Shown piece after piece: positions 37,160-50,214 of a stretch of 64,000 nucleotides of DNA. Position 1 is the first letter of the stretch. Every line of letters starts with the position of its first letter. The stretch lies in contig JAATGQ010000160.1 of the NCBI GenBank assembly GCA_015654595.1, positions 1 to 64,000 on the forward strand, given 5' to 3'. Below the pieces are notes generated by a model, which did not search any database, was not told the origin of the DNA, and saw only the letters and a program-made list of their open reading frames with translations. The translations under genes were made by a program, and so were the position numbers. Source of the DNA: Chitinophagales bacterium. Lineage in GTDB: Bacteria; Bacteroidota; Bacteroidia; Chitinophagales; Chitinophagaceae.

Positions 37160-38137
37160 ATGTTCCAGATGAGAAAGAAGCTATTTGCCATATTGGTCCT
37201 CTTTTGTATCACCGGCTTTGCCCGGGGACAGGAGATCAACTTTTCGAGGGTGCAGGACATGACGATCTGGTACAACCAGTCCCTCACTACGGAGAAGGAT
37301 AATGTTCTGCGTATGAACTATCGTAGTGTAAGATATGGGGGAGACATCGCCTACAACAGTGTCGCTGCCCTCTTCAGCACACCCCTGTTGTCCAAAGAGG
37401 CGCGGACAAGAACCAATTCGGGTTATTTCAGTCTCAGCGCCGGCGCCGCTTCTGATAAGACCAATGATGGTATACTCAATAATTCGCTGGGGATGCTCGG
37501 TATCTCCTACGCCGTTCCGATCGGCGGCCATAATACCTACCTGGGCGTTGGCTTCCAGGGACAGTATTATCAGAGCAATTTGAATGTGGCAGGCGTTGCA
37601 AACGCTTTTGGCGATCAGTTCAATAACTACGGCCCCATCGAAGGAGTGCCAAGTGCTGACCGTCTGGCGAATGGCTGGTCTTATGGCCACTTCAACATAA
37701 ACACCGGGGTATCTTTATTCAGTAATGGAGAAACGGAAAAATGGTATGTCGGCGGCTCGGTAATGCAGGTGAACGAACCCTATAGCTATAAAGTAAAAGC
37801 AGACTCTACACGACTCAAAGCAACTATCGGCTTTCAGGGCGGCTATCGGTATAAGACAAAGACGGATGACGAAGTAGGGATCTTTGCCTCTATGAGCTGG
37901 CAGGGACCAGCTTACCGTCATTACTTCGATCTCTCTTACACAAAAGCCATACCAGGATCGGACGCCTCGGTAGGGTTGGGCTTGGGGTATCGGTATGATG
38001 ACGCACTGGTCCCAAACCTGGAGATCCGGTATCAGAAGCTGATCATTGCTGTACTATATGATGTGAATATTTCTTCGATCAACGCCGCCGGTATCGACCG
38101 GGATGGAATAGAATTGTCACTGCGGCTTGACTTTTAA
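37160..38137 (+). CDS. PorP/SprF-family T9SS membrane protein
   Basis: A 325-residue outer-membrane barrel. The signal peptide (KKLFAILVLFCITGFARGQ) ends near residue 23. The mature start EINFSRVQDMTIWYNQSLT is the usual PorP/SprF opening, in which the plug-like N-terminus is followed by strands with many Gly/Tyr residues (YFSLSAGAASDKTNDG, GMLGISYAVPIGGHNTYLGVGFQGQYYQ), a late block with VGLGLGYRYDDALVPNLEIRYQK, and the final strand ISLRLDF-like ending in Phe. SprF-type proteins assist secretion or anchoring of type B-sorted adhesins such as SprB, and the gene directly follows such an adhesin. An alternative start is Met4 (37169). Confidence 0.92.
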   Translation: MFQMRKKLFAILVLFCITGFARGQEINFSRVQDMTIWYNQSLTTEKDNVLRMNYRSVRYGGDIAYNSVAALFSTPLLSKEARTRTNSGYFSLSAGAASDKTNDGILNNSLGMLGISYAVPIGGHNTYLGVGFQGQYYQSNLNVAGVANAFGDQFNNYGPIEGVPSADRLANGWSYGHFNINTGVSLFSNGETEKWYVGGSVMQVNEPYSYKVKADSTRLKATIGFQGGYRYKTKTDDEVGIFASMSWQGPAYRHYFDLSYTKAIPGSDASVGLGLGYRYDDALVPNLEIRYQKLIIAVLYDVNISSINAAGIDRDGIELSLRLDF

Positions 38138-40421: not shown

Positions 40422-42071
40422 CTATCTCCCCCCATTGTCGCTGCTGGCCCCCGCGGAAGCCTGGGCCGACTTTGAAAGGCTCTTTTTCAGAATACCGATA
40501 TAGCGCTGGGCATCGCTGTTTTCAGGATCAAGGGCAAGCAACCGTTGGAAGTAATCGATAGCGCCGGCGTAATCCTTTTGGGTATTGGCCTTATAGGCCG
40601 CTATATAGCCATAGGATTCGATAAGGTGTTTACGGTTCGTCTTTTCGGTGGAGTCCTTACTGTCGATATCAACGATCTTCAGGTAGTCGGGTATAGCCAG
40701 ACCGGTCATCGTCGTATCGATGGCGGCTGCGCTGCGAGCCCGCCAGTAATAACCAAAGCATTGGTCGGGGTACTTGCTGACATACAGGGTGAATACCGTG
40801 TCGGCCAACGGAAACTCCTTTGCCATATAGTGGGCGAGTCCCCAGTTGAACAGATCGAGGTTGGTTGCCCGGTCATTCCCCTGGTAATAGCGGCCAAGCC
40901 AGATGGCCTGATTGGAATAGTCTTTTTGCCCCTTGTACAGACCCGCCAGCTTCTTGGCATAGTTGCGTTGCTGCAGGCTGTCTTTTTCGAGATTGCCTGC
41001 CTTTATATAATAGGCGATCGCCGAGTCGGGCTGGTGCAGTTCATCATAAATTTCGGCCATCGTTGAATAGTCTTTTACGACAAAGCCGGAGTCGGGCTGT
41101 TGCTGGAAATATTGTTTCATATAATCCAGCGCTTTTGTCGAATCGTGCAGCTCTTTGTAGGAGTAGGCGATGAGTTTATAAAGACGAGGCTCGGATTTGC
41201 CTGCCTGCTGTCCGATCAGGTGCCGGGCGTGATCGATCGCAGATTGATATTGACGGGAAGAATAAAGCAGGTCGGTAACGAGGTAGTCGTTTTTGATACC
41301 GGGATCGTCGTTGGCAATATAATGATTGAGGTATTCCATTGCCTTGTTGACGTCGTGGAAGTAATAGTGGTAATACAGCTCGAACCAGGCCGGTGCAAAG
41401 GTAGAATCGGCTGCCACGGCGTCGTTGAAATACTTCAGGTACATCTCGGGATTGTCCTGGGTAACAAAGATCTTTCCGAGCCGGTACATCGCATCCACAT
41501 TGCGATCGTCAAGGGCAAGGGCGTCCTGGTAAGCCTTATAGGAGTTGGTGCCATCCATCAGCTTACGATAAGCATTACCGAGCGCGACGTAAAGACCCGG
41601 CGTGTGTTTGTCTCTTTTTATCGCTTTGTTCAGCAGTTCGATCGCGTAGTTGGCATCACCGGAGTCGGCTTCCTGGTGGGCAGTAGCTACGGCAAGCAGA
41701 ATCATGGGGTCTTTTTCTTTTGTGTCCGTGAGCGCTTTTGTAAAGAGGGTTGCGGCACTGTCCTTCTTTTGTTGTTCAAGCAGCACAGCCCCATAAGCGC
41801 AGAGTGCGAAGGGCTGCTGGCTTGTCGCGGCGGGCAGCAGCAGGAGCATGTCGTGTGCGGCTTGTACCCGGTGATCGTGCAGCATGACCCGCGTCAGCAG
41901 CCACCAGGCTTGTGCGTCGTCTGGGTTAGTGTGGAGCAGGACCGTCAGCTCTTTGAAGGCGCTTTCATAGCGCTGATAGGTGAGGTCTTGCTGGGCTTTG
42001 GTCAGAGATTGAGCCTTTGGCTGGTAGTAGAAGGCGATTAGCAGAGTTGCCGCCAACAACGTTTTTTTCAT
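40422..42071 (-). CDS. Exported TPR-repeat protein
   Basis: A 549-residue protein. The signal peptide (KKTLLAATLLIAFYYQPKAQ) starts at the ATG at 42071; the frame extends far upstream through the USP gene in another frame and that part is an artefact. The body is a run of about ten tetratricopeptide repeats, seen as 34-residue helical pairs with the W/L/G/Y-A pattern (for example NPDDAQAWWLLTRVMLHDHRV and GNAYRKLMDGTNSYKAYQDALALDDRNVDAMYRLG). The end is Ser/Ala-rich. TPR proteins hold partners together in the periplasm. It lies 29 bases after the universal stress gene stop and is probably the second gene of that operon. Confidence 0.88.
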   Translation of the reverse strand: MKKTLLAATLLIAFYYQPKAQSLTKAQQDLTYQRYESAFKELTVLLHTNPDDAQAWWLLTRVMLHDHRVQAAHDMLLLLPAATSQQPFALCAYGAVLLEQQKKDSAATLFTKALTDTKEKDPMILLAVATAHQEADSGDANYAIELLNKAIKRDKHTPGLYVALGNAYRKLMDGTNSYKAYQDALALDDRNVDAMYRLGKIFVTQDNPEMYLKYFNDAVAADSTFAPAWFELYYHYYFHDVNKAMEYLNHYIANDDPGIKNDYLVTDLLYSSRQYQSAIDHARHLIGQQAGKSEPRLYKLIAYSYKELHDSTKALDYMKQYFQQQPDSGFVVKDYSTMAEIYDELHQPDSAIAYYIKAGNLEKDSLQQRNYAKKLAGLYKGQKDYSNQAIWLGRYYQGNDRATNLDLFNWGLAHYMAKEFPLADTVFTLYVSKYPDQCFGYYWRARSAAAIDTTMTGLAIPDYLKIVDIDSKDSTEKTNRKHLIESYGYIAAYKANTQKDYAGAIDYFQRLLALDPENSDAQRYIGILKKSLSKSAQASAGASSDNGGR

Positions 42072-42100: not shown

Positions 42101-42925
42101 TTAGTTGTATGGTTGTAGATCGAGGATCTGGATCTTCGAGTCGCGCGTCAGCAAATCGCTGATATGCCGGGAACCGGTGATGCCGGACAGATCGCTTTCT
42201 GTAGCTGCGTTCAGCAGGATCATGTCGGCCATGATCTTTTCTGCATAGCGGAGAGCCGCTTTTGCCGGGTGCCGCCTGGTCACGGATGTGTATTCGATAG
42301 GATGGTGGAGGTGTTCGCGAAGATGGTGGTAGGCTCTCAGGAAGATCTGGGGAAGCCCATTCTCTTTTGGCGCAGCCTGCTGCTGGATGGCCAGCAGATG
42401 GATCTGGGCCTTGAATTTCCTCGCCAGCAGCACGCCCCATTCCAGCTTACGATCCGGCATCGAATCGCGGATCGGGATGACGATGATACGGGTCCTTGTC
42501 TCGAGGGCTCCGGGTTTGGCCGTCCATACGGGACAATTTGTTTTTCGGGCTAGGGTTGCAGGCGACAGATGTTTCAGGGACAGCCAGCGCCGCTTGTTAT
42601 TTTGTTTGCCGATGATGATCAGATCGGGCTTTAACATCGAAGCGCAGCTTGTTATCAGTTTTTGAACCGAAGCCCCGTGCAGGATATGTATCCTGACCTT
42701 GATGGCGGGATGGCTGACGGCGAGGCGGTCAACCCATACCTTTAAGGCAGTCTCCGCTTCCTGGGAAAGAAAGCCCGTGGCGCTCCTTTGGCTGCCCTTT
42801 ATAATATGAATAAGGTGCAGGGTAGACTCCTCCCAACCGATGAGACCGGCGGCTTTTGTGATCGCCAGTTCGGTGTTCAGCGAGAAATCCACCGGGATGA
42901 GTATTTTATTGAATGCAGCCGCCAT
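42101..42925 (-). CDS. Universal stress protein (tandem UspA domains)
   Basis: A 274-residue protein with two UspA-like domains. The first (about 1-140) has the opening KILIPVDFSLNTELAITKA, an LHGASVQK segment and PDLIIIGKQN. The second (about 148-274) begins RIIVIPIRDS, has the ADMILLNAA strand and a final RDSKIQILDLQP. The ATP-binding GxxGxxxxS loop is degenerate in both domains, so binding is uncertain. It is the first gene of a minus-strand operon with the TPR gene. It diverges from the response regulator gene across an ATTAGA repeat, which may control both directions. Confidence 0.88.
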   Translation of the reverse strand: MAAAFNKILIPVDFSLNTELAITKAAGLIGWEESTLHLIHIIKGSQRSATGFLSQEAETALKVWVDRLAVSHPAIKVRIHILHGASVQKLITSCASMLKPDLIIIGKQNNKRRWLSLKHLSPATLARKTNCPVWTAKPGALETRTRIIVIPIRDSMPDRKLEWGVLLARKFKAQIHLLAIQQQAAPKENGLPQIFLRAYHHLREHLHHPIEYTSVTRRHPAKAALRYAEKIMADMILLNAATESDLSGITGSRHISDLLTRDSKIQILDLQPYN

Positions 42926-42969
42926 AAACTCTCTTTAATCCCAAGCTAAGGACCCGACATTAGCTGCTT

Positions 42970-42997
42970 ATTAGAGCCGTATTAGAATTATATTAGA
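42970..42997 (+). promoter_or_regulatory. Three ATTAGA direct repeats, 11-bp period
   Basis: ATTAGA begins at 42970, 42981 and 42992, exactly 11 bases apart. The site is between the divergent USP/TPR and response-regulator/kinase operons. The spacing is the one used by OmpR-family dimers binding head-to-tail. Confidence 0.78.
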
Positions 42998-43060
42998 GCC
43001 TGGGGTTTGGAACGTAAAACTTTGATAATTCGGGGATTGTTGGATAATATTGTATTAGAA

Positions 43061-43765
43061 ATGAATATGACGGAGGAAAGAAAAATATTAGTTGTCGAGG
43101 ACGAGAAGAAAATTGCCGATACCCTGAAGATGGGTTTGTCGGAAAATGGCTTTGAGGTCGATGTGGCCTATGACGGCAAGATCGGCTATCAACTGCTGAT
43201 GTCAAGGGATTTTGACCTGGTCATCCTGGATATCAATCTGCCAGGGATGAACGGCTATGATCTGTGTAAGGCGATCCGGTATCGCAATATGGGCATGCTG
43301 GTGATCATGCTGACGTCGATGTCTTCGCTGGACGACAAGATCGAAGGGTATGATGCAGGGGCGGATGATTATATCGTCAAGCCGTTTGAGTTCCGCGAAC
43401 TCCTCTTAAAGATACGCGCCTTATTAAAGAGGACGGCCGGGCAGGCAATGCCGGTAGGCAATATACTCCGCGCGGCTGACCTCGAAATGAACCTCGACAA
43501 CAAAGAAGTGCATCGGGCGGGGCAGAAGATCAGGCTGACGGCCAAGGAGTTTCAGCTGTTGGAATACCTCATGCGCAACAAGAACAGGGTAGTCTCAAGG
43601 GCCGACCTGGCGATCAATGTATGGGATGTGGACTTTAATACGAACACCAACGTGATAGACGTCTATATCAGTTATGTCCGGAACAAGGTGGACAAGGATT
43701 TTGAACAGAAATTGATCCAGACCCAGGTTGGGATGGGCTATATTCTAAAAACCAGCGGCAGCTGA
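43061..43765 (+). CDS. OmpR-family response regulator
   Basis: A 234-residue two-domain regulator. The receiver (about 8-120) has the acidic pair in VVEDEKK, the phospho-acceptor Asp57 (LVILDINLPGMNG), the Thr/Ser of MLTSMSSLDD and the Lys of YIVKPF. The winged-helix trans_reg_C domain (about 135-232) has VHRAGQKIRLTAKEFQLLEYL, RVVSRADLAINVWD and VGMGYIL. The frame opens earlier with a TTG at 43007, but ATGs at 43061 and 43067 give the normal N-terminus. It overlaps the histidine kinase gene by one base (TGATG). Its probable DNA site is the ATTAGA triple repeat just upstream. Confidence 0.96.
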   Translation: MNMTEERKILVVEDEKKIADTLKMGLSENGFEVDVAYDGKIGYQLLMSRDFDLVILDINLPGMNGYDLCKAIRYRNMGMLVIMLTSMSSLDDKIEGYDAGADDYIVKPFEFRELLLKIRALLKRTAGQAMPVGNILRAADLEMNLDNKEVHRAGQKIRLTAKEFQLLEYLMRNKNRVVSRADLAINVWDVDFNTNTNVIDVYISYVRNKVDKDFEQKLIQTQVGMGYILKTSGS

Positions 43766-45159
43766 TGCCCGTTAAAATACGCATAACACTTTTATTCACC
43801 CTGCTGGTGGTAGGGATACTCTCACTGGTATGCGGTTCTGCTTATTACTTTTCTTATACGAACAGGATAAAAGATATCCAGACGAGACTGACAAACCGGG
43901 CGATTACGACCGGCCGTCTTTTGAGCCAGGGTGGAATAGTGGATCAGGCCTTTATCCGGAAGATTGACGCTTCGACTTCTGTTGCGATGAAAGAAAAAGT
44001 GGTGCAGGTCTATGACGAGCAGGGCCGGCGTATTTACTGGTCGACGGACTATGCGACGGATACGCCGCATATCGATCGGGCGATCCTGGTGCAGGCCCGG
44101 CAAGAGAAGACTCCGCCTTATTACTTTACCTTGAATGACAAAGATGCGATTGCCTATACCTATAAGGATGAGCATGTATCCTATGTCATTGTCGCGTCGG
44201 CTTATGATGAATCGGGGAAGGAAAAGATGCGGCATTTACGGCTGGTCCTGACGCTGAGTTTTATTGGCGGCATTCTTTCTTCTGTTATCGGTGGATACTT
44301 ATTCTCGATCAGCCTGCTCTATCCGCTGCGGCGGATAGCAGATGAGGCGGGAGAGATATCGGCGCGTAACCTGACGCGTCGTATCCGCAGTACGGGTACG
44401 CATCCCAATGACGAATGGCATCATCTTTCCGATACGTTGAATCGGCTGCTGGACCGGCTCCAGGAGAGTTTTGAGATACAGGGCCGGTTTATCGCCAACG
44501 CTTCACACGAGCTGTCGACGCCGTTGACTTCGATATCCAGCCAGTTGGAAGTGGCTCTGCAACGAACCAGGACGGTCGATGAATACCGCCAGGTCATCCA
44601 GTCAGCCTACCAGGACGCCCGGCAGCTCGGCAAGCTGACCCAGACGCTGCTGGAGTTTGCAAGGGCCTCTGGAACTGCTTCGGGGATCGAGATCGACCTG
44701 ATCCGGATCGATGAGATATTGCTGCGTCTGCCGGGTGAGATCCCACGGATGAATACGTTGTTTTCGGTCACGCTGGATTTTGACCGGCTGCCGGAAGCGG
44801 AAGAAGAGCTGCTGGTGTTTGGGAATGAGGGATTGTTGTTTACTGCTATCCGGAATATCGTGATCAATGCCTGTAAGTATTCGGATGATCATCACGCCAC
44901 AGTACGGTTATCGGTGGAGGGTCAGGAGATCCGGATTGCGGTGGAAGATAAGGGGAGGGGGATTCCGAGGGAGGAGTGGGAGAGGATCTTTCAACCGTTT
45001 TACCGGACGGAGGACGGTTTCGTCAGCGGGCATGGTTTAGGGCTTTCTTTGTCGAGGCGAATAATACAGCTGCATAAAGGCAGGATCGAGGTCGACTCGG
45101 CCTTAGGTAAGGGTTCGACGTTCGTGCTGCGGCTTCCGATGGCTGGAGCCCCGGGTTGA
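43765..45159 (+). CDS. Sensor histidine kinase of the OmpR-type pair
   Basis: A 464-residue membrane kinase. Two membrane helices (about 7-30 and 159-186) frame a ~125-residue periplasmic sensor region with no recognised domain. A HAMP linker follows (about 186-240), then the HisKA domain with the phosphorylated His248 in FIANASHELSTPLTS. The ATPase domain (about 350-460) has the N box (IVINACKYSDD), the G1 box (VEDKGRGIP), the F box (IFQPFYRTED) and the G2 box (GHGLGLSLSRRI). Coupled by one overlapping base to the response regulator gene. Confidence 0.96.
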   Translation: MPVKIRITLLFTLLVVGILSLVCGSAYYFSYTNRIKDIQTRLTNRAITTGRLLSQGGIVDQAFIRKIDASTSVAMKEKVVQVYDEQGRRIYWSTDYATDTPHIDRAILVQARQEKTPPYYFTLNDKDAIAYTYKDEHVSYVIVASAYDESGKEKMRHLRLVLTLSFIGGILSSVIGGYLFSISLLYPLRRIADEAGEISARNLTRRIRSTGTHPNDEWHHLSDTLNRLLDRLQESFEIQGRFIANASHELSTPLTSISSQLEVALQRTRTVDEYRQVIQSAYQDARQLGKLTQTLLEFARASGTASGIEIDLIRIDEILLRLPGEIPRMNTLFSVTLDFDRLPEAEEELLVFGNEGLLFTAIRNIVINACKYSDDHHATVRLSVEGQEIRIAVEDKGRGIPREEWERIFQPFYRTEDGFVSGHGLGLSLSRRIIQLHKGRIEVDSALGKGSTFVLRLPMAGAPG

Positions 45160-45175
45160 TCGCCCGCCGCAAAAA

Positions 45176-45192
45176 TCTAATACAATTCTAAT
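45176..45192 (-). promoter_or_regulatory. Two reversed ATTAGA repeats, 11-bp period
   Basis: TCTAAT begins at 45176 and 45187 (ATTAGA on minus), with a weaker third match (TTTAAG) at 45198. It starts 17 bases past the kinase stop and lies immediately before the OmpA-like remnant. Confidence 0.62.
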
Positions 45193-45213
45193 CCCGGTTT
45201 AAGCCGCTATTAA

Positions 45214-45384
45214 TCTTGCGATCCAATCTTGTTGGACAATTCCGCTCAGAGTATCCGGCAGTCGCTGGACAACCTGGGCGCCAAGGATGCTTATATTCAG
45301 GAGCTGCAGGCGGCGATGGCGCACAAGGATTCGCTGAACATGCCGCAGCTGGATCAATTCTTTAAATTACTCGAAAGAAAATAA
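45214..45384 (+). pseudogene. OmpA-family coding remnant (no start codon)
   Basis: An open frame without ATG encodes 49 clear residues before the stop at 45382-45384, including SIRQSLDNLGAKDAYIQELQ and HKDSLNM. That resembles the coiled-coil stretch that precedes the OmpA domain in Bacteroidota OmpA-family lipoproteins (SIKKSLEAL.. then KDSLNLALV). The resemblance breaks at MPQLDQFF, where the OmpA domain should begin. It looks like an internal piece left by deletion, still flanked by an ATTAGA site and a terminator. A short functional gene from a TTG start (45229 or 45232) is possible but unsupported. Confidence 0.65.
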
Positions 45385-45430
45385 AGAGCTGTCTGTAGTT
45401 AGGTTTAGTCCGTGCTTCATGTACAAATGG

Positions 45431-45460
45431 CCTCCTGCCGACGGCAGGGGGTTTTTTATT
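45431..45460 (+). terminator. Plus-strand terminator after the remnant
   Basis: CCTGCC and GGCAGG form the core stem around GAC, extended by CC/GG pairs, and run into GTTTTTTATTT. It marks the end of a plus-strand transcript through the remnant. Confidence 0.82.
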
Positions 45461-45493
45461 TAAAGTTAAAGGCCCCGCCGTAAAGGCGAGGCC
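45458..45493 (-). terminator. Minus-strand terminator of the coiled-coil gene
   Basis: On the minus strand GGCCTCGCC and GGCGGGGCC (45471-45493) form a near-perfect GC stem, followed by TTTAACTTT. It lies just past the stop at 45500. Confidence 0.75.
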
Positions 45494-45499
45494 TGTGTA

Positions 45500-46696
45500 T
45501 TAATTTACGAGATACATTCTCGTGGCTGAATTGATGTATTCTATCGGATCAAAAGCGCTGTCGAAAGTGTCGCTGAGGGCATCGAGTTTGACTTCGAGCG
45601 ATTGTACCTTCAGGCCGATTTCGGGGTCGCTTTTGTACTTAAAAACGAGTTCGTTGTATTTGGAGATGATACCGCGGATATCGAAGGTAAGTTCGCCAAA
45701 ACGGGTCTTGAGCGACTGGACATCCATCAATTCGAAATAGATAGGCTGTTTCCAGGATTTGAGATCGGCTTCGCGGCGTTCTGCAACGAGGACCGCGGCC
45801 TTTTTACGGATCTCGGTCAGGAACTCGTAGCGCTGTTCGGCGTCTGTCTCCTTCGCAAAACGGTGGATATACTCTTCGCGGGGGACTCTCAGCAGGGCCA
45901 GGTTTTGATTCAGGATGGTGTCATAATGGATCTGAAGTTTTTCCAGTTCCTTTGTAACGATCTCCCATTGTTGCTGGACGAGGTCCTTGTCGTAGTTGAA
46001 CTGGCTCAGTTTGGCGGTCAGCAGGAACATTTTCTGACTCTGCTCCTTCAACTCTTTGCGCTTTGCGCCGATATTCTGGATAAAATCGTTGATGCCGATA
46101 AAGAAGGCCTGTGCGATAGGACCGGTAAGGGCAGCGCCGGTAGCCAGGTTGCTGGTCGTCTGCAGCATGTCATGCAGGACATTGAGAGCGGGCTCCTGGT
46201 CCTTTTGTTTTTCAATAAAGTCGTAGAACTTCTTATACCATTCCTGGTAGCCGGGGTATTTCATCGGGTCTCCCGTCTCGCCCAGCGTCGCGAAGAAGTT
46301 CTTGGCGGCATTGAACAGGACCAGCGGTTTTATTTCCTTGTCCATCGAAACCAGGTTGATGATAGCGGATTGGTAGTTGGCCTGGTAGACGTATAGCTCG
46401 TTTTCTTCGATCGTTTGTTGTTTCTTCTCGAGCGCCTGTACGCGGAGGATCAGTTTGTCCACCTTGTCTTTGGCATCCCGGGATAAAGCGATCTGCTGGT
46501 CGAGAGAGTCTACCTTCTGATCCAGCTTGGACAGGGTAGCGTCGATCGTCTTTGTCTTTTTGTCCAGATTGTCCTGGATGTCGCTAAGAACTTTGTTACG
46601 GATGTTTTTGTCGGAAGACAGCGTCGTGTCGGGCGCTTGGGCAGATGCAAGCAGGATGCTGATCAATCCTAGCGAGGTGAAAAGGAATTTTTTCAA
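45500..46696 (-). CDS. Exported coiled-coil protein of unknown function
   Basis: A 398-residue protein. The signal peptide (KKFLFTSLGLISILLASAQ) is cleaved near residue 20. Residues about 30-105 carry strong heptads (IRNKVLSDIQDNLDKKTKTIDATLSKLDQKVDSLDQQIAL), followed by a helical middle with a Gly/Ala stretch (SNLATGAALTGPIAQAFFIGINDF, possibly membrane-active or buried) and further coils up to the C-terminus. No enzymatic motif. Not recognised. It faces away from the ATTAGA triple repeat 127 bases upstream of its ATG, so it may belong to the neighbouring two-component regulon. It contains no Cys in the mature part that I noticed. Confidence 0.85.
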   Translation of the reverse strand: MKKFLFTSLGLISILLASAQAPDTTLSSDKNIRNKVLSDIQDNLDKKTKTIDATLSKLDQKVDSLDQQIALSRDAKDKVDKLILRVQALEKKQQTIEENELYVYQANYQSAIINLVSMDKEIKPLVLFNAAKNFFATLGETGDPMKYPGYQEWYKKFYDFIEKQKDQEPALNVLHDMLQTTSNLATGAALTGPIAQAFFIGINDFIQNIGAKRKELKEQSQKMFLLTAKLSQFNYDKDLVQQQWEIVTKELEKLQIHYDTILNQNLALLRVPREEYIHRFAKETDAEQRYEFLTEIRKKAAVLVAERREADLKSWKQPIYFELMDVQSLKTRFGELTFDIRGIISKYNELVFKYKSDPEIGLKVQSLEVKLDALSDTFDSAFDPIEYINSATRMYLVN

Positions 46697-46822
46697 GTGA
46701 TTTCGATTTTGGAAATTAAAACGGTTTCCCAGGGTGTAGACAGGTTAGCAGCCACGGATCGCTGGAGTTTTGACCAGGGTTTCCGGCAATAATTGAAAAT
46801 AACGTCATAAAGATAAAACGGT

Positions 46823-46850
46823 ATTAGAAAAAAATTAGAAAGTTATTAGA
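46823..46850 (+). promoter_or_regulatory. Three ATTAGA direct repeats, 11-bp period (second full site)
   Basis: ATTAGA begins at 46823, 46834 and 46845. The arrangement copies the site at 42970. It lies upstream of the coiled-coil gene (minus) and of the candidate small RNA (plus). Confidence 0.78.
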
Positions 46851-46911
46851 ATCGTAGAACTACGATTAAAAATAGAGGGATTTTGCTCTTTTTTAACAAA
46901 GCAAATGGTTA

Positions 46912-46919
46912 TACTTTTG
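46912..46919 (+). promoter_or_regulatory. TAnnTTTG promoter element
   Basis: TACTTTTG matches the Bacteroidota primary-sigma -7 element exactly. The -33 region is not clear: TTTTG at 46881-46885 lies too far upstream. No plus-strand gene follows, only the candidate small RNA. Confidence 0.45.
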
Positions 46920-46925
46920 ACTTAT

Positions 46926-47037
46926 CCAATACTTATGAAGTCCGAATAGAAAAATCCAGAAAAACCAGCTTCGAAAAGAAGCAAAATTCAATCCAATTTT
47001 CTTTTGAAAAGCCCCTGACTAATCTTGGGGGTTTTTT
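46926..47037 (+). ncRNA. Candidate small RNA ending at an intrinsic terminator
   Basis: Between the TACTTTTG element and a terminator at 47008-47037 there is no open frame longer than a few codons, and the whole gap 46697-47219 lacks a plus-strand gene. A transcript of about 110 bases would contain a small hairpin (GCTTC-GAAAA-GAAGC, 46969-46983) and end at CCCC..GGGG plus TTTTTT. The 5' end is a guess. The ATTAGA site upstream would place it under the two-component system. Function unknown. Confidence 0.4.
47008..47037 (+). terminator. Terminator with no upstream gene
   Basis: AAAAGCCCC and GGGGGTTTTTT (one mismatch) enclose an 11-base loop (47007-47037). Plus-strand orientation, although the nearest plus-strand gene is more than 1.8 kb upstream. 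Confidence 0.6.
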
Positions 47038-47169
47038 CGTTTAGGACCTGCCTGTGAGCCGGTCGGCCAAACAAGGCCCCCTCTGCCATTTATCATCCGG
47101 CCTGAATTACCTCTGAACATTTCCCCCTTTACAACCCGCCTTGTATTCTTCTTTTTGATTTATAGAATG

Positions 47170-47219: not shown

Positions 47220-48557
47220 TTATACTGCGTCAGAAAGAGAAGAAAAAGTAAAGTCACGGATCTTCATCGGCGGTATAAGCGCTGTGGTTCCGCTTTCTCC
47301 GCTGATCGTCCTTTCCGGATAGCCCAGCGCCTCAAGATTATTGAGCATAATAATAGGACTCTCGTTGAAGCGGAAATTCTTGATCGGAAATTTGATCTTT
47401 CCGTTCTCGATATAAAAGGTACCGTCCCTGGTAAGGCCGGTATACAGCAAGGTCTGGGGATCAACTTCCCGGATATACCACAGGTGTGTAACAAGGACGC
47501 CCTTCTCGGTTCCCTTGATCAGGTCTTCGAGGGTCTGACGCCCGCCGGACATGAAAAAGGAATCCCCGGCGGGAAGTGGCTGCACTCCCTTTTTCTCAGC
47601 CCAGTAACGCGAGTAAAAGAGGTTTTTTACAACGCCTTTTTCGATCCACATCGTTTTATTCAGGGGCAGCCCCTCGCCGGTATAGTTGCGGCTGGGGATT
47701 TGTGGATTCCAGGGATCGGACCAGATGGACACCTGCGGGTCGACTAACTGTTCGCCAAGCCGGGTCTTGCCGCCGGGAAGACTGAGGAAGCTGCGGCCTT
47801 CATCGGCACTGCGCGCGTCGAGCGCGCCGTATAGATTTTCGAGCAGCACGATACCGGCTGCGGGTTCGAGTATCACGGTATACTTGCCGGGTTCGATCGC
47901 CTGGGCCTTCGCCGAATTGGTTGCCTTCCATGCGGCCGTACTGGCGGCTTTGGTCATGTCGAGCAGACCGGCGTCATTGTAGCTGCCCGAAGTATAGCCT
48001 GATCCGGTGCCGTCGCTCGTACGAAGGGTCAGCGAATAATTGATGTCGGTCGCCGTATGATAGGCAAAGAGCCCATGGCTGTTCATCATCGCGCTGAACC
48101 CGGCGGAGTTTTCGAGATAGCCGGCAGCGGTGATGTTCCCGGCCCTGGCAATGTCCAGACTTTGTTTTGTCCAGTCTGCCCGCTGGGCGTTGGTGACGCC
48201 GGCTGTAGCCTCGAAAAAGCATTGCGCAGGCTGAGCATAGGTCTGGGGCGGCAGCATCGGCATATATTCGGGATTTTCCGGCGCCAGCCTTGCCAGCTCT
48301 TCGTAACGTCTCATGGCCTTCAGCAGGCTCGCATCGTCGTACTCGTTGATGGTGGAGATCCCTTGCTTCTTACCAAAAGTAGAGGCTATCGCCAATTCGG
48401 TTGAATTGATCGAAGCGCTGGTAGAAACGGCGTTGATGGCCCAGCGGATATTGCCTGTCTGACCGCCGCCGATCGACACCTGGCATTCGTCGGCTTTGGA
48501 CAGATCCAGAACTTTCTTTAAGAGGGTTTGGGCTTCGTCTTTTGTCAGGATGGGCAT
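47220..48557 (-). CDS. pmbA: TldE/PmbA-family metalloprotease subunit
   Basis: A 445-residue member of the PmbA/TldE group, the subunit without a zinc site in TldD/TldE proteases. The N-terminal domain has LLKKVLDLSKADECQVSIGGG and an NAVSTSASINSTELAIAS stretch, the middle FSAMMNSHGLFAYHTATDINYSLTLR, and the C-terminal domain has TVILEPAAGIVLLENLYGALD, GDSFFMSGGRQTLEDLIKGTEKG and a final GTTALIPPMKIRDFTF block. The frame extends 47 residues before the ATG at 48557, but that part runs in the TldD gene and is not used. The start lies one base after the TldD stop (TGATATG), so the two are coupled. Confidence 0.93.
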   Translation of the reverse strand: MPILTKDEAQTLLKKVLDLSKADECQVSIGGGQTGNIRWAINAVSTSASINSTELAIASTFGKKQGISTINEYDDASLLKAMRRYEELARLAPENPEYMPMLPPQTYAQPAQCFFEATAGVTNAQRADWTKQSLDIARAGNITAAGYLENSAGFSAMMNSHGLFAYHTATDINYSLTLRTSDGTGSGYTSGSYNDAGLLDMTKAASTAAWKATNSAKAQAIEPGKYTVILEPAAGIVLLENLYGALDARSADEGRSFLSLPGGKTRLGEQLVDPQVSIWSDPWNPQIPSRNYTGEGLPLNKTMWIEKGVVKNLFYSRYWAEKKGVQPLPAGDSFFMSGGRQTLEDLIKGTEKGVLVTHLWYIREVDPQTLLYTGLTRDGTFYIENGKIKFPIKNFRFNESPIIMLNNLEALGYPERTISGESGTTALIPPMKIRDFTFSSLSDAV

Positions 48558-48558
48558 A

Positions 48559-50214
48559 TCAGATTTTTCTTGCAGTGTTGATAACATTGATACCATTAAA
48601 ACGAGCGGTCGAAGAGCCGTGGCTGACGGCGCTGACCTGTTCGGGCTGTCCCTTTCCATCGAAGAAAGAACCGCCGAGACGGTAGTCTTTTTCATCACAG
48701 ACCGCCGTGCAGGAATTCCAGAACTCCTGGGTATTGGCCTGGTATGCTCCGTCCTTGAGCATGCCGGTTATCTTGCCATTGCGGATCTCATAGAAAAGCT
48801 GGCCGCTGAACTGGAAATTGTACCGTTGCTGGTCGATGGAATAGGAACTGTTGCCGATGATATAGATCCCCTTTTCGACGTTTTTGATCAGGTCATTGGG
48901 TGACAGCGGCGCCTTGCCGGGACGCAGCGAAATATTGGGCATACGCTGGAACTGCACGTCGCGCCAGCTCTGAGCATAGCAGCAGCCTTGGGATTCGTTA
49001 AGACCGATGATCTTTGCCTGATCCCGGATAGCCTGGTAATTGACGAGAACACCGTCTTTTATGATATCCCATTCCTTTGTCTGGACGCCTTCGTCGTCAT
49101 AGCCGACGGCGCCAAGAGAACCGGGCTGGAGCTTATCCGCGACGATATTGACATGCGGGCTTCCATAATTGAATTTTTTTGATTCCCATTTATCGAGGGT
49201 CAGGAAGCTGGTGCCGGCGAAGTTGGCTTCGTAGCCAAGGACGCGGTCGAGTTCGGTTGGATGGCCCGAAGACTCGTGGATCGTCAGCCAGAGATTGGTC
49301 GGGTCCAGGATAAGATCGTATTTCCCCGCTTCGACGGAGCGGGCCGTCTGCTTTTCCTGAGCCTGCTGCGCAGCAAGTCTTGCGTCTTCGAGCATATCGT
49401 AGCGATCCCGATACAGCGTAGTGACCGTCTTTATCTTTTTCTGTTCGTCCGGTGTCAGGTATTCAAAACCCATCCCCATCGGAGCACTGAGCGAGTCCCT
49501 TGTTTCGAACTTGCCTGTCTTCGGATCTATATGCGTGACGGTAAAGGTGGGCCAGATGCGATGAATATCCTGGTCGATATAGGAGCCATCGGTAGAGGCA
49601 AAATACTTCTGCTCGTTGACGAGAAAGAGATTGGAATTGACAAAGCTGGCGCCGCCTTTCAACGCTGCCGCATTGACTTCGAGCAGCAGATCTGCTTTTT
49701 CTTTTATCGGGATATCGAAGCTGTTCTTTTGTATGGGCGTCTTCCAGCTTACCTCGCCATAACCTTTTTGGGGCACCAGCTCTACGGGCCGGGTGAGCAG
49801 ACGGGCGTTTTCTTTGGCGATGGAGACAGCTTCTGCAGCAGTCCTGGCAATGCTGTCGGCATCCATACGGTCGGTAGCGGCAAAACCCCAACAGCCGCCC
49901 GCGATCACCCGGATACCGATACCATACGACTCGGTGTCGACGGTGTTCAGGACCTTATCTTCCCGGGTTATAACGAACTGATTGCGATAGCGTCCAATAC
50001 GGGCGTCGGCATAGGTGGCGCCTTTGGACCGGGCCGCATTGAGCGCGATATCGGCCAGCCTCTTTTTCTGCTGGACATCCATATAGGTTAAGGGCGTGTC
50101 AGGGGACAGAGGCGAACCCAGAACCGGTATCCGGCTTAGCAGCGCGCCGCCCAGACCCATGCCTGTCAGATAGAGAAAGTCTTTTCTTTTCACGAGCGTG
50201 AGATTTACGCTCAA
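48559..50214 (-). CDS. tldD: TldD-family metalloprotease with N-terminal leader
   Basis: A 551-residue TldD-type subunit. The zinc motif HESSGH (His313, Glu314, His318) is present in the LTIHESSGHPTELDRVLGYEA block, and the C-terminus has GGSFFDGKGQPEQVSAVSHGSSTARFNGINVINTARKI, the usual end. Before the domain (about 45 onward) there is a Lys/Arg-Lys-Asp-Phe and Gly-rich hydrophobic leader (KRKDFLYLTGMGLGGALL), a Tat-like or lipoprotein-free signal, which would place the protease outside the cytoplasm, unlike the E. coli enzyme. TldD/E proteases cut unfolded peptides and mature RiPPs. No RiPP precursor was seen next to it. Confidence 0.92.
   Translation of the reverse strand: MSVNLTLVKRKDFLYLTGMGLGGALLSRIPVLGSPLSPDTPLTYMDVQQKKRLADIALNAARSKGATYADARIGRYRNQFVITREDKVLNTVDTESYGIGIRVIAGGCWGFAATDRMDADSIARTAAEAVSIAKENARLLTRPVELVPQKGYGEVSWKTPIQKNSFDIPIKEKADLLLEVNAAALKGGASFVNSNLFLVNEQKYFASTDGSYIDQDIHRIWPTFTVTHIDPKTGKFETRDSLSAPMGMGFEYLTPDEQKKIKTVTTLYRDRYDMLEDARLAAQQAQEKQTARSVEAGKYDLILDPTNLWLTIHESSGHPTELDRVLGYEANFAGTSFLTLDKWESKKFNYGSPHVNIVADKLQPGSLGAVGYDDEGVQTKEWDIIKDGVLVNYQAIRDQAKIIGLNESQGCCYAQSWRDVQFQRMPNISLRPGKAPLSPNDLIKNVEKGIYIIGNSSYSIDQQRYNFQFSGQLFYEIRNGKITGMLKDGAYQANTQEFWNSCTAVCDEKDYRLGGSFFDGKGQPEQVSAVSHGSSTARFNGINVINTARKI

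Follow-up and report, generated by a model that had tools for sequence, protein, structure and literature searches.

Periodic ATTAGA arrays around a two-component system of a Chitinophagales bacterium as predicted operators of its OmpR-type regulator

The window analysed here is the whole of a 64,000-nucleotide stretch from a Chitinophagales bacterium (contig JAATGQ010000160.1 of assembly GCA_015654595.1, positions 1 to 64,000), and our subject is a block within it where three arrays of ATTAGA direct repeats surround the genes of an OmpR/PhoB-type response regulator and its partner sensor kinase. The initial annotation of this DNA had taken the repeats for the operator of the regulator and the block for one local regulon. 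Considering the evidence as a whole, the best explanation is that the arrays are operators of the regulator at 43061-43765, controlling its own operon together with envelope and stress genes. We regard this prediction as very probable in view of the conservation of the sites at orthologous loci, the covariation between regulator and site, and the published structure of a PhoP-DNA complex. The block is organized as follows.

40422 to 42071, reverse strand: TPR protein with a signal-like start (Pfam), downstream of the universal stress protein gene and predicted to share its operon
42101 to 42925, reverse strand: universal stress protein (USP; Pfam), predicted target of array 1
42959 to 42997, forward strand: array 1, predicted operator array of four half-sites with an 11-bp period (ATTAGC and three ATTAGA), between the USP gene (reverse) and the regulator gene (forward)
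43061 to 43765, forward strand: OmpR/PhoB-type response regulator (Pfam Response_reg and Trans_reg_C)
43765 to 45159, forward strand: sensor kinase, partner of the regulator (Pfam HAMP, HisKA and HATPase, HAMP scoring slightly below its cut-off)
45176 to 45214, reverse strand: array 2, predicted operator array directly 3' of the kinase stop
45232 to 45384, forward strand: remnant of an OmpA-type lipoprotein gene behind array 2, with the start and the OmpA domain missing
45500 to 46696, reverse strand: coiled-coil-like protein with a signal-like start, predicted target of array 3, from which it points away
46823 to 46850, forward strand: array 3, predicted operator array of three exact ATTAGA copies (46823, 46834 and 46845), upstream of the coiled-coil gene (reverse)

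The array coordinates given in the initial annotation hold, as does the exact 11-bp period, and the window contains three arrays. In array 1 the ATTAGA copies start at 42970, 42981 and 42992 on the forward strand, with an extra ATTAGC at 42959; the USP and TPR genes point away from it. Array 2, on the forward strand, reads TCTAAT (45176), TCTAAT (45187), TTTAAG (45198) and ATTAAT (45209), the third being the copy that had been described as weaker and the last a fourth copy. A lone ATTAGA at 43054, which had been considered a possible chance occurrence, is indeed without an exact partner at period 11. With up to two mismatches allowed, the pair pattern matched 11 times in the 64 kb against 4.33 expected, a count reached by 0 of 100 shuffles. 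The 6.03-Mb assembly of the organism, which is 87% complete, contains seven exact pairs as compared with two for the reversed pattern, and five of the seven lie inside the 3.9-kb block. An exact three-copy pattern, TTAN8TTAGN7TTAG, is matched six times in this genome, with four matches in the three arrays of the window and the others on contigs C234 and C264.

A search of 57 relatives detected a full-length kinase orthologue (55-77% identical) in 10, and stretches of 5-16 kb were inspected at all 10 loci. Named relatives comprise Puia dinghuensis, a cultivated strain whose orthologous locus (L364) has a 76% identical kinase, and further Chitinophagaceae. An equivalent of array 1 was found at the same place and on the same strand in 9/9 of the loci whose contig includes the region upstream of the regulator. 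Each of these nine arrays has three or four half-sites; in most, an ATTAGA pair comes after half-sites of the TTAA or TTAG type, and at L055 ATTAGA occurs in the last copy only. Array 2 has an equivalent after the kinase, in the same (reverse) orientation, at 6 of the 10 loci. The coiled-coil gene is preceded by a strict pair, equivalent to array 3, in four genomes including the organism's own, and a TTAGA pair also lies there in L050 (the same place as L182). Comparison of the same intergenic regions in relatives was one of the checks proposed with the initial annotation; another, a genome-wide scan, gave an enrichment that goes with the presence of the kinase. Over the 58 genomes, the 11 with a kinase at E<=1e-150 (the organism's own included) contain 61 exact pairs against 12 in the reversed control, and the other 47 contain 38 against 38. 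Thirteen of these 38 pairs belong to G029 and G031, in both of which the regulator, 85-86% identical, lies at the end of a contig; with both set aside the count becomes 25 pairs against 38 in the control.

These counts also bear on the reading of the arrays as products of chance or base composition, that is, as functionless AT-rich intergenic repeats. With one mismatch allowed, the organism's own genome contains 18 pairs and the reversed control 15, and for the three-copy pattern the counts are 43 and 100; such numbers, near or below their controls, speak for chance and limit the calling of arrays from sequence to near-exact ones. Nevertheless, a chance origin is scarcely credible and we consider it ruled out, as the enrichment depends on the two-component system (TCS), position and orientation are kept over genomes, and the period of 11 holds for TTAGA and predominates for the related TTAAA repeats described below.

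The genes facing such arrays were surveyed in 57 fetched stretches and the window, the former comprising the kinase-orthologue loci, most exact family hits and three stretches of the organism's own genome with looser pairs. A gene was counted as a target when its 5' end faced an array within 400 bp; six stretches from other genomes (L175-L180) were excluded from clustering, neighbouring genes were called by a simple codon-usage script, for which some starts are approximate, and clusters were named from the Pfam domains of their representatives. The survey yielded 78 arrays and 94 array-facing genes, and it revealed an orientation rule, in which a target faces its array either as the regulator faces array 1 (forward) or as USP does (reverse). 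Forward targets are the response regulators of this and of a second, related TCS group (12 genomes, 12/13 genes) and the ClC channel (5 genomes, 6/6 genes). Reverse targets are USP (array upstream in 7 genomes, 7/7), the OmpA-type lipoproteins (6 genomes, 9/9 genes), the coiled-coil protein (4 genomes, 4/4), a membrane kinase-like family (4 genomes, 4/5 genes), TPR with an array of its own (3/3, in G013, G029 and G034), a small membrane protein without a Pfam domain name (3 genomes), and MgtC-type and cation P-type ATPase genes (3 genomes each). By their neighbourhood the last two clusters belong to the second TCS group. Clusters found in one or two genomes may include chance sites. As a separate observation, one array is common to a ClC channel gene and a divergent gene for a membrane histidine-kinase-like protein in four genomes (L147, L150, L152 and L155).

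The proposal that the block forms one regulon is therefore borne out in part. The regulator operon, USP and the coiled-coil gene keep their arrays in relatives, and TPR does so in three genomes, but the small-RNA candidate that had been included in the regulon does not belong to it, as discussed below. The truncation of the OmpA-type gene, which had been recognized as a remnant, is evident from comparison with relatives, where full-length orthologues occur whose OmpA domain is detected by Pfam. When the 287-amino-acid orthologue of L049 was compared with the remnant by tblastn, residues 93-131 and 274-287 matched and nothing else. The coiled-coil protein, for its part, has no match in Pfam or NCBIfam. 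The description of the regulon as local has to be abandoned: arrays occur elsewhere in the organism's own genome, and in relatives further ones are found at ClC, a second OmpA-type lipoprotein, MscS and other genes, which rules out a strictly local regulon.

In the mechanism that we propose, the kinase would activate the regulator, whose domains would occupy the half-sites singly, 11 bp apart and in head-to-tail order. On the strand that reads like the PhoB and PhoP boxes the half-site would be TCTAAT, with ATTAGA on the other, and a Tyr of the recognition helix (codon 43673-43675) would contact the second letter of TCTAAT, a C. The activated regulator would then act on its own operon, on USP-TPR, the OmpA-type lipoproteins and the coiled-coil protein, and in relatives on ClC channels. 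An array in the TCTAAT orientation probably lies just upstream of the -33 region or replaces it, and would recruit RNA polymerase in the manner of CiaR and PhoB.

In Bacteroidota the -7 box is TAnnTTTG. Among reverse-oriented targets, TTG occurs at +36 after the array in 8/26 cases against a mean of 0.44 per offset, with extra degenerate half-sites between the array and this TTG; TAnnTTTG at +44 was seen in 6/55 reverse-oriented genes, and those inspected belong to the second TCS group. This spacing resembles that of promoters at which an activator stands in place of the -33 element. The opposite view, that the sites overlap promoters and repress by blocking RNA polymerase, would fit the array on C264, which lies about 20 bp before a start codon, and the forward sites 49-128 bp before the regulator gene, where autoregulation could be negative. 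On the other hand, a -7-like box seems to recur at a fixed distance after the array in reverse targets, as in CiaR-activated promoters (PMC3091779; this and the other papers cited by PMC number are used here in excerpt), and we therefore consider repression unlikely and activation the more plausible mode. The 18 forward-oriented targets, the regulator included, show no sharp peak in the distance to a -7 box; this counts against activation at these genes and means that autoregulation could have either sign.

The regulator itself has the two domains expected of the OmpR/PhoB family, a receiver (PF00072, 3.7e-30) and a Trans_reg_C winged helix (PF00486, 1e-25), and direct repeats about one helical turn apart, the kind of site bound by this family, are present and covary with its recognition helix. 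The proposed specificity residue is the Tyr already named, residue 202 counting from codon 43070 and the Y in VYIS[Y]VRNK. This residue and the adjacent array type were recorded for a discovery set of 115 regulators of the window's order (three duplicates dropped), of which 75 have Tyr and 40 Phe. A TTAGA-TTAGA pair at period 11 was found beside 51/75 Tyr and 0/40 Phe regulators, and a TTAAA pair beside 9/75 and 36/40, respectively. A recount without the 13 Tyr loci that had been fetched through ATTAGA hits gave TTAGA pairs for 40/62 Tyr and 0/40 Phe regulators (p 1e-12).

The rule was fixed before being applied to a fresh set of 67 regulators belonging to other orders of the class; 27 came from loci of the search itself, and 40 were picked from a longer list to spread over genomes. 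Here, TTAGA pairs accompany 8/26 Tyr and 0/32 Phe regulators (Fisher p 8e-4), and TTAAA pairs 3/26 Tyr and 23/32 Phe regulators (p 4e-6). The remaining regulators have Leu (five, two with TTAAA), His (three, none with TTAAA) or Ile (one, with TTAAA). For the combined 182 regulators, TTAGA pairs amount to 59/101 for Tyr and 0/72 for Phe, and TTAAA pairs to 59/72 for Phe and 12/101 for Tyr; when repeated 5-mers are counted without bias, TTAGA again ranks first for Tyr and TTAAA for Phe. At other periods TTAGA pairs occur in at most 2/101 Tyr regulators, and TTAAA pairs, present in 59 Phe regulators at period 11, occur in 15/72 at period 10, in 10/72 at period 12 and otherwise in at most two. The set comprises 140 genomes, 20 of which hold both Tyr and Phe regulators, and in 12 of these 20 Tyr goes with TTAGA and Phe with TTAAA. 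Sister regulators that have His in place of Tyr or Phe were observed at L307, L319 and L345, with neither TTAGA nor TTAAA pairs.

A structural basis for such a rule is suggested by PhoP of Mycobacterium tuberculosis, to which the regulator aligns without gaps in the recognition region, its Tyr falling on Tyr220 in the numbering of the paper. In that complex Tyr220 hydrogen-bonds the C at position 2 of the TCACAGC half-site, and 7-bp motifs with a 4-bp spacer form an 11-bp repeat (PMC4832192). TCTAAT has a C at the place contacted by PhoP, whereas TTTAAT has a T there, provided that the register of the half-sites is the same in the two proteins. The remaining letters of the half-site differ, and M. 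tuberculosis belongs to a distant phylum.

Other known systems are alike in kind. The streptococcal CiaRH system has an OmpR-type regulator that binds 6-bp direct repeats with a 5-bp spacer (TTTAAG-N5-TTTAAG) and hence an 11-bp period, with arrays near the -10 element and several scattered targets (PMC3091779). However, in CiaR the Tyr is replaced by Lys (VVEVYVSKVRKKL), with T as the letter read there, and small RNAs are true CiaR targets, whereas in relatives of our organism the RNA beside array 3 mostly occurs without an array. The PmrA/BasR box of Klebsiella (CTTAAT / CCTAAG) is built of head-to-tail half-sites that differ little in sequence from those described here (PMC3973317), and PmrA is related in sequence to the window's regulator; it differs in having Asn196 at the Tyr position, which makes no contact in the model as excerpted from PMC3973317. 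PhoB of Escherichia coli likewise recognizes tandem sites, and its Arg201 contacts guanine from the same position (PMC3973317), but the residue is Arg rather than Tyr and the pho box is CTGTCAT (PMC4832192). A conserved LRXK motif adjoining the specificity residue is described in PMC4867592, the excerpted text of which is not concerned with base specificity.

Of the 99 matching NCBIfam families, 25 were listed for comparison, and among these the heavy-metal regulators CusR/CzcR/SilR and their kinases (TIGR01387 and TIGR01386) form the best-scoring named subfamily, with 237 bits for the regulator and 182 bits for the kinase. For the families named here the scores lie below the curated cut-offs: the regulator reaches 237.1 of 279.2 bits for cztR_silR_copR (TIGR01387), 139.2 of 370 for RprY (NF051850), 160.8 of 330 for PmrA and 176.5 of 296.2 for PhoB, and the kinase 182 of 293 for the heavy-metal kinases. 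The kind of system is already known from PhoB, CiaR and PmrA; our literature searches, with partial coverage, found no paper on this operator or the residue rule in Bacteroidota, which does not prove that none exists.

The association of Tyr and Phe with different letters could merely reflect shared ancestry, with old subfamilies differing in many residues as well as in their motif. Counts based on mutual information and on trees, from which loci with both pairs or neither were excluded, address this possibility. Over the 123 regulators with one array class, the column of residue 202 has the highest mutual information (0.734, the next being 0.304), and it also ranks first within 81 rows under 60% identity. 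Parsimony gives 11 residue changes on the regulator tree and 7-9 on the regulator-plus-kinase tree. Several results favour shared ancestry and weigh against a residue rule. In the 37 fresh rows alone residue 202 ranks fourth, with three other columns higher, and supported independent changes are few: six pairs on the regulator-plus-kinase tree, of which about five point the same way and none the opposite way (sign test p 0.0625), and two pairs for regulators alone. Apart from ancestry, the link between regulator and array is weakened by 7/61 Tyr regulators of one motif class that carry TTAAA pairs only and, in the other orders, by 15/26 Tyr and 9/32 Phe regulators with neither pair. Among the 35 Tyr regulators with no pair of either type, a search for other period-11 5-mers gave nothing convincing. 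Nevertheless, with the repeated changes on two trees, the lead of residue 202 in the larger sets and the same contact seen in an independent crystal structure, we judge ancestry alone to be a rather improbable explanation.

Six of the seven TTAAA-only Tyr regulators hold mixed TTAGA/TTAAA pairs, which suggests that Tyr tolerates either letter, in contrast to Phe, for which just one is accepted. It is likely that a one-residue code operates in this OmpR-type clade of Bacteroidota, where Tyr would read TCTAAT and tolerate TTTAAT, Phe would read TTTAAT only, and a single hydroxyl would separate the 11-bp-period operators of duplicated TCSs. The rule connects a single side chain with a single base across a large clade of regulators and agrees with a published complex structure; if true, one residue may suffice for sibling regulators to have separate targets. 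Since near-exact arrays are visible in raw sequence, candidate regulons can be predicted for many genomes.

The second TCS group offers another candidate for the protein that binds the arrays, the window's regulator then being merely adjacent to them. Its kinases are about 30-38% identical to that of the window and lie near MgtA/MgtC-type genes, and its loci have the same Tyr and carry TTAGA arrays, in most cases at the kinase stop or immediately 3' of it. The occurrence of both groups in the same genomes makes cross-binding possible and is a point against assigning the arrays to the window's regulator alone. However, scoring of 28 of 80 candidates in the 87% complete assembly gave no second kinase at E<=1e-40, array 1 accompanies orthologues of the window's regulator in all nine testable loci, and the Phe-bearing sister pairs carry TTAAA arrays at their own operons. 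We consider binding by such a regulator quite improbable, and retain the regulator at 43061-43765 as the predicted binding protein. The second group was observed at L133, L136-L143 and L145, its kinases, where matched, being 30-36% identical to that of the window. Its arrays before MgtC-type and cation P-type ATPase genes suggest a PhoPQ-like magnesium response in Bacteroidota.

Two further features lie beside array 3:

46851 to 46866, strand not assigned: palindrome ATCGTA-N4-TACGAT, directly 3' of array 3; its conservation follows the RNA candidate and not the array
46923 to 47040, forward strand: small-RNA candidate with its own TAnnTTTG box (46912-46919) and a terminator

They form part of a conserved small-RNA-like element, seen at 46851-47040 of the window and at L181-L204, which consists of the palindrome, the TAnnTTTG box, TATCCAAT, TGAA, GAAAAACCA and the terminator; in several loci the TGAA belongs to an ATGAAR followed immediately by a stop. 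Similar DNA occurs in many genomes of the same genus, some of them without the window's kinase. A TTAGA pair is found within 70 bp upstream in 5/19 loci with the element, and a stricter element pattern gave 15 loci, two with a pair. The candidate is thus conserved mostly without the array and is ruled out as a dedicated member of the regulon; we assign the array to the coiled-coil gene, with the RNA as a neighbour. Rfam gave no match at the gathering threshold over the whole window, with all low-threshold matches near the candidate below curated scores, and the consensus fold shows the terminator hairpin only.

Elsewhere in the organism's own genome, an ATTAGA-N5-ATTAAA pair was observed at L171 (contig C206 of G000), about 13 bp before a called gene that by eye resembles an extracytoplasmic function (ECF) sigma factor. 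The surroundings of the block are ordinary according to Pfam, with a gene for a PorP/SprF-type protein of the type IX secretion system (T9SS) upstream, at 37160-38137 of the window, and a TldD/PmbA-type pair downstream, at 47220-50214.

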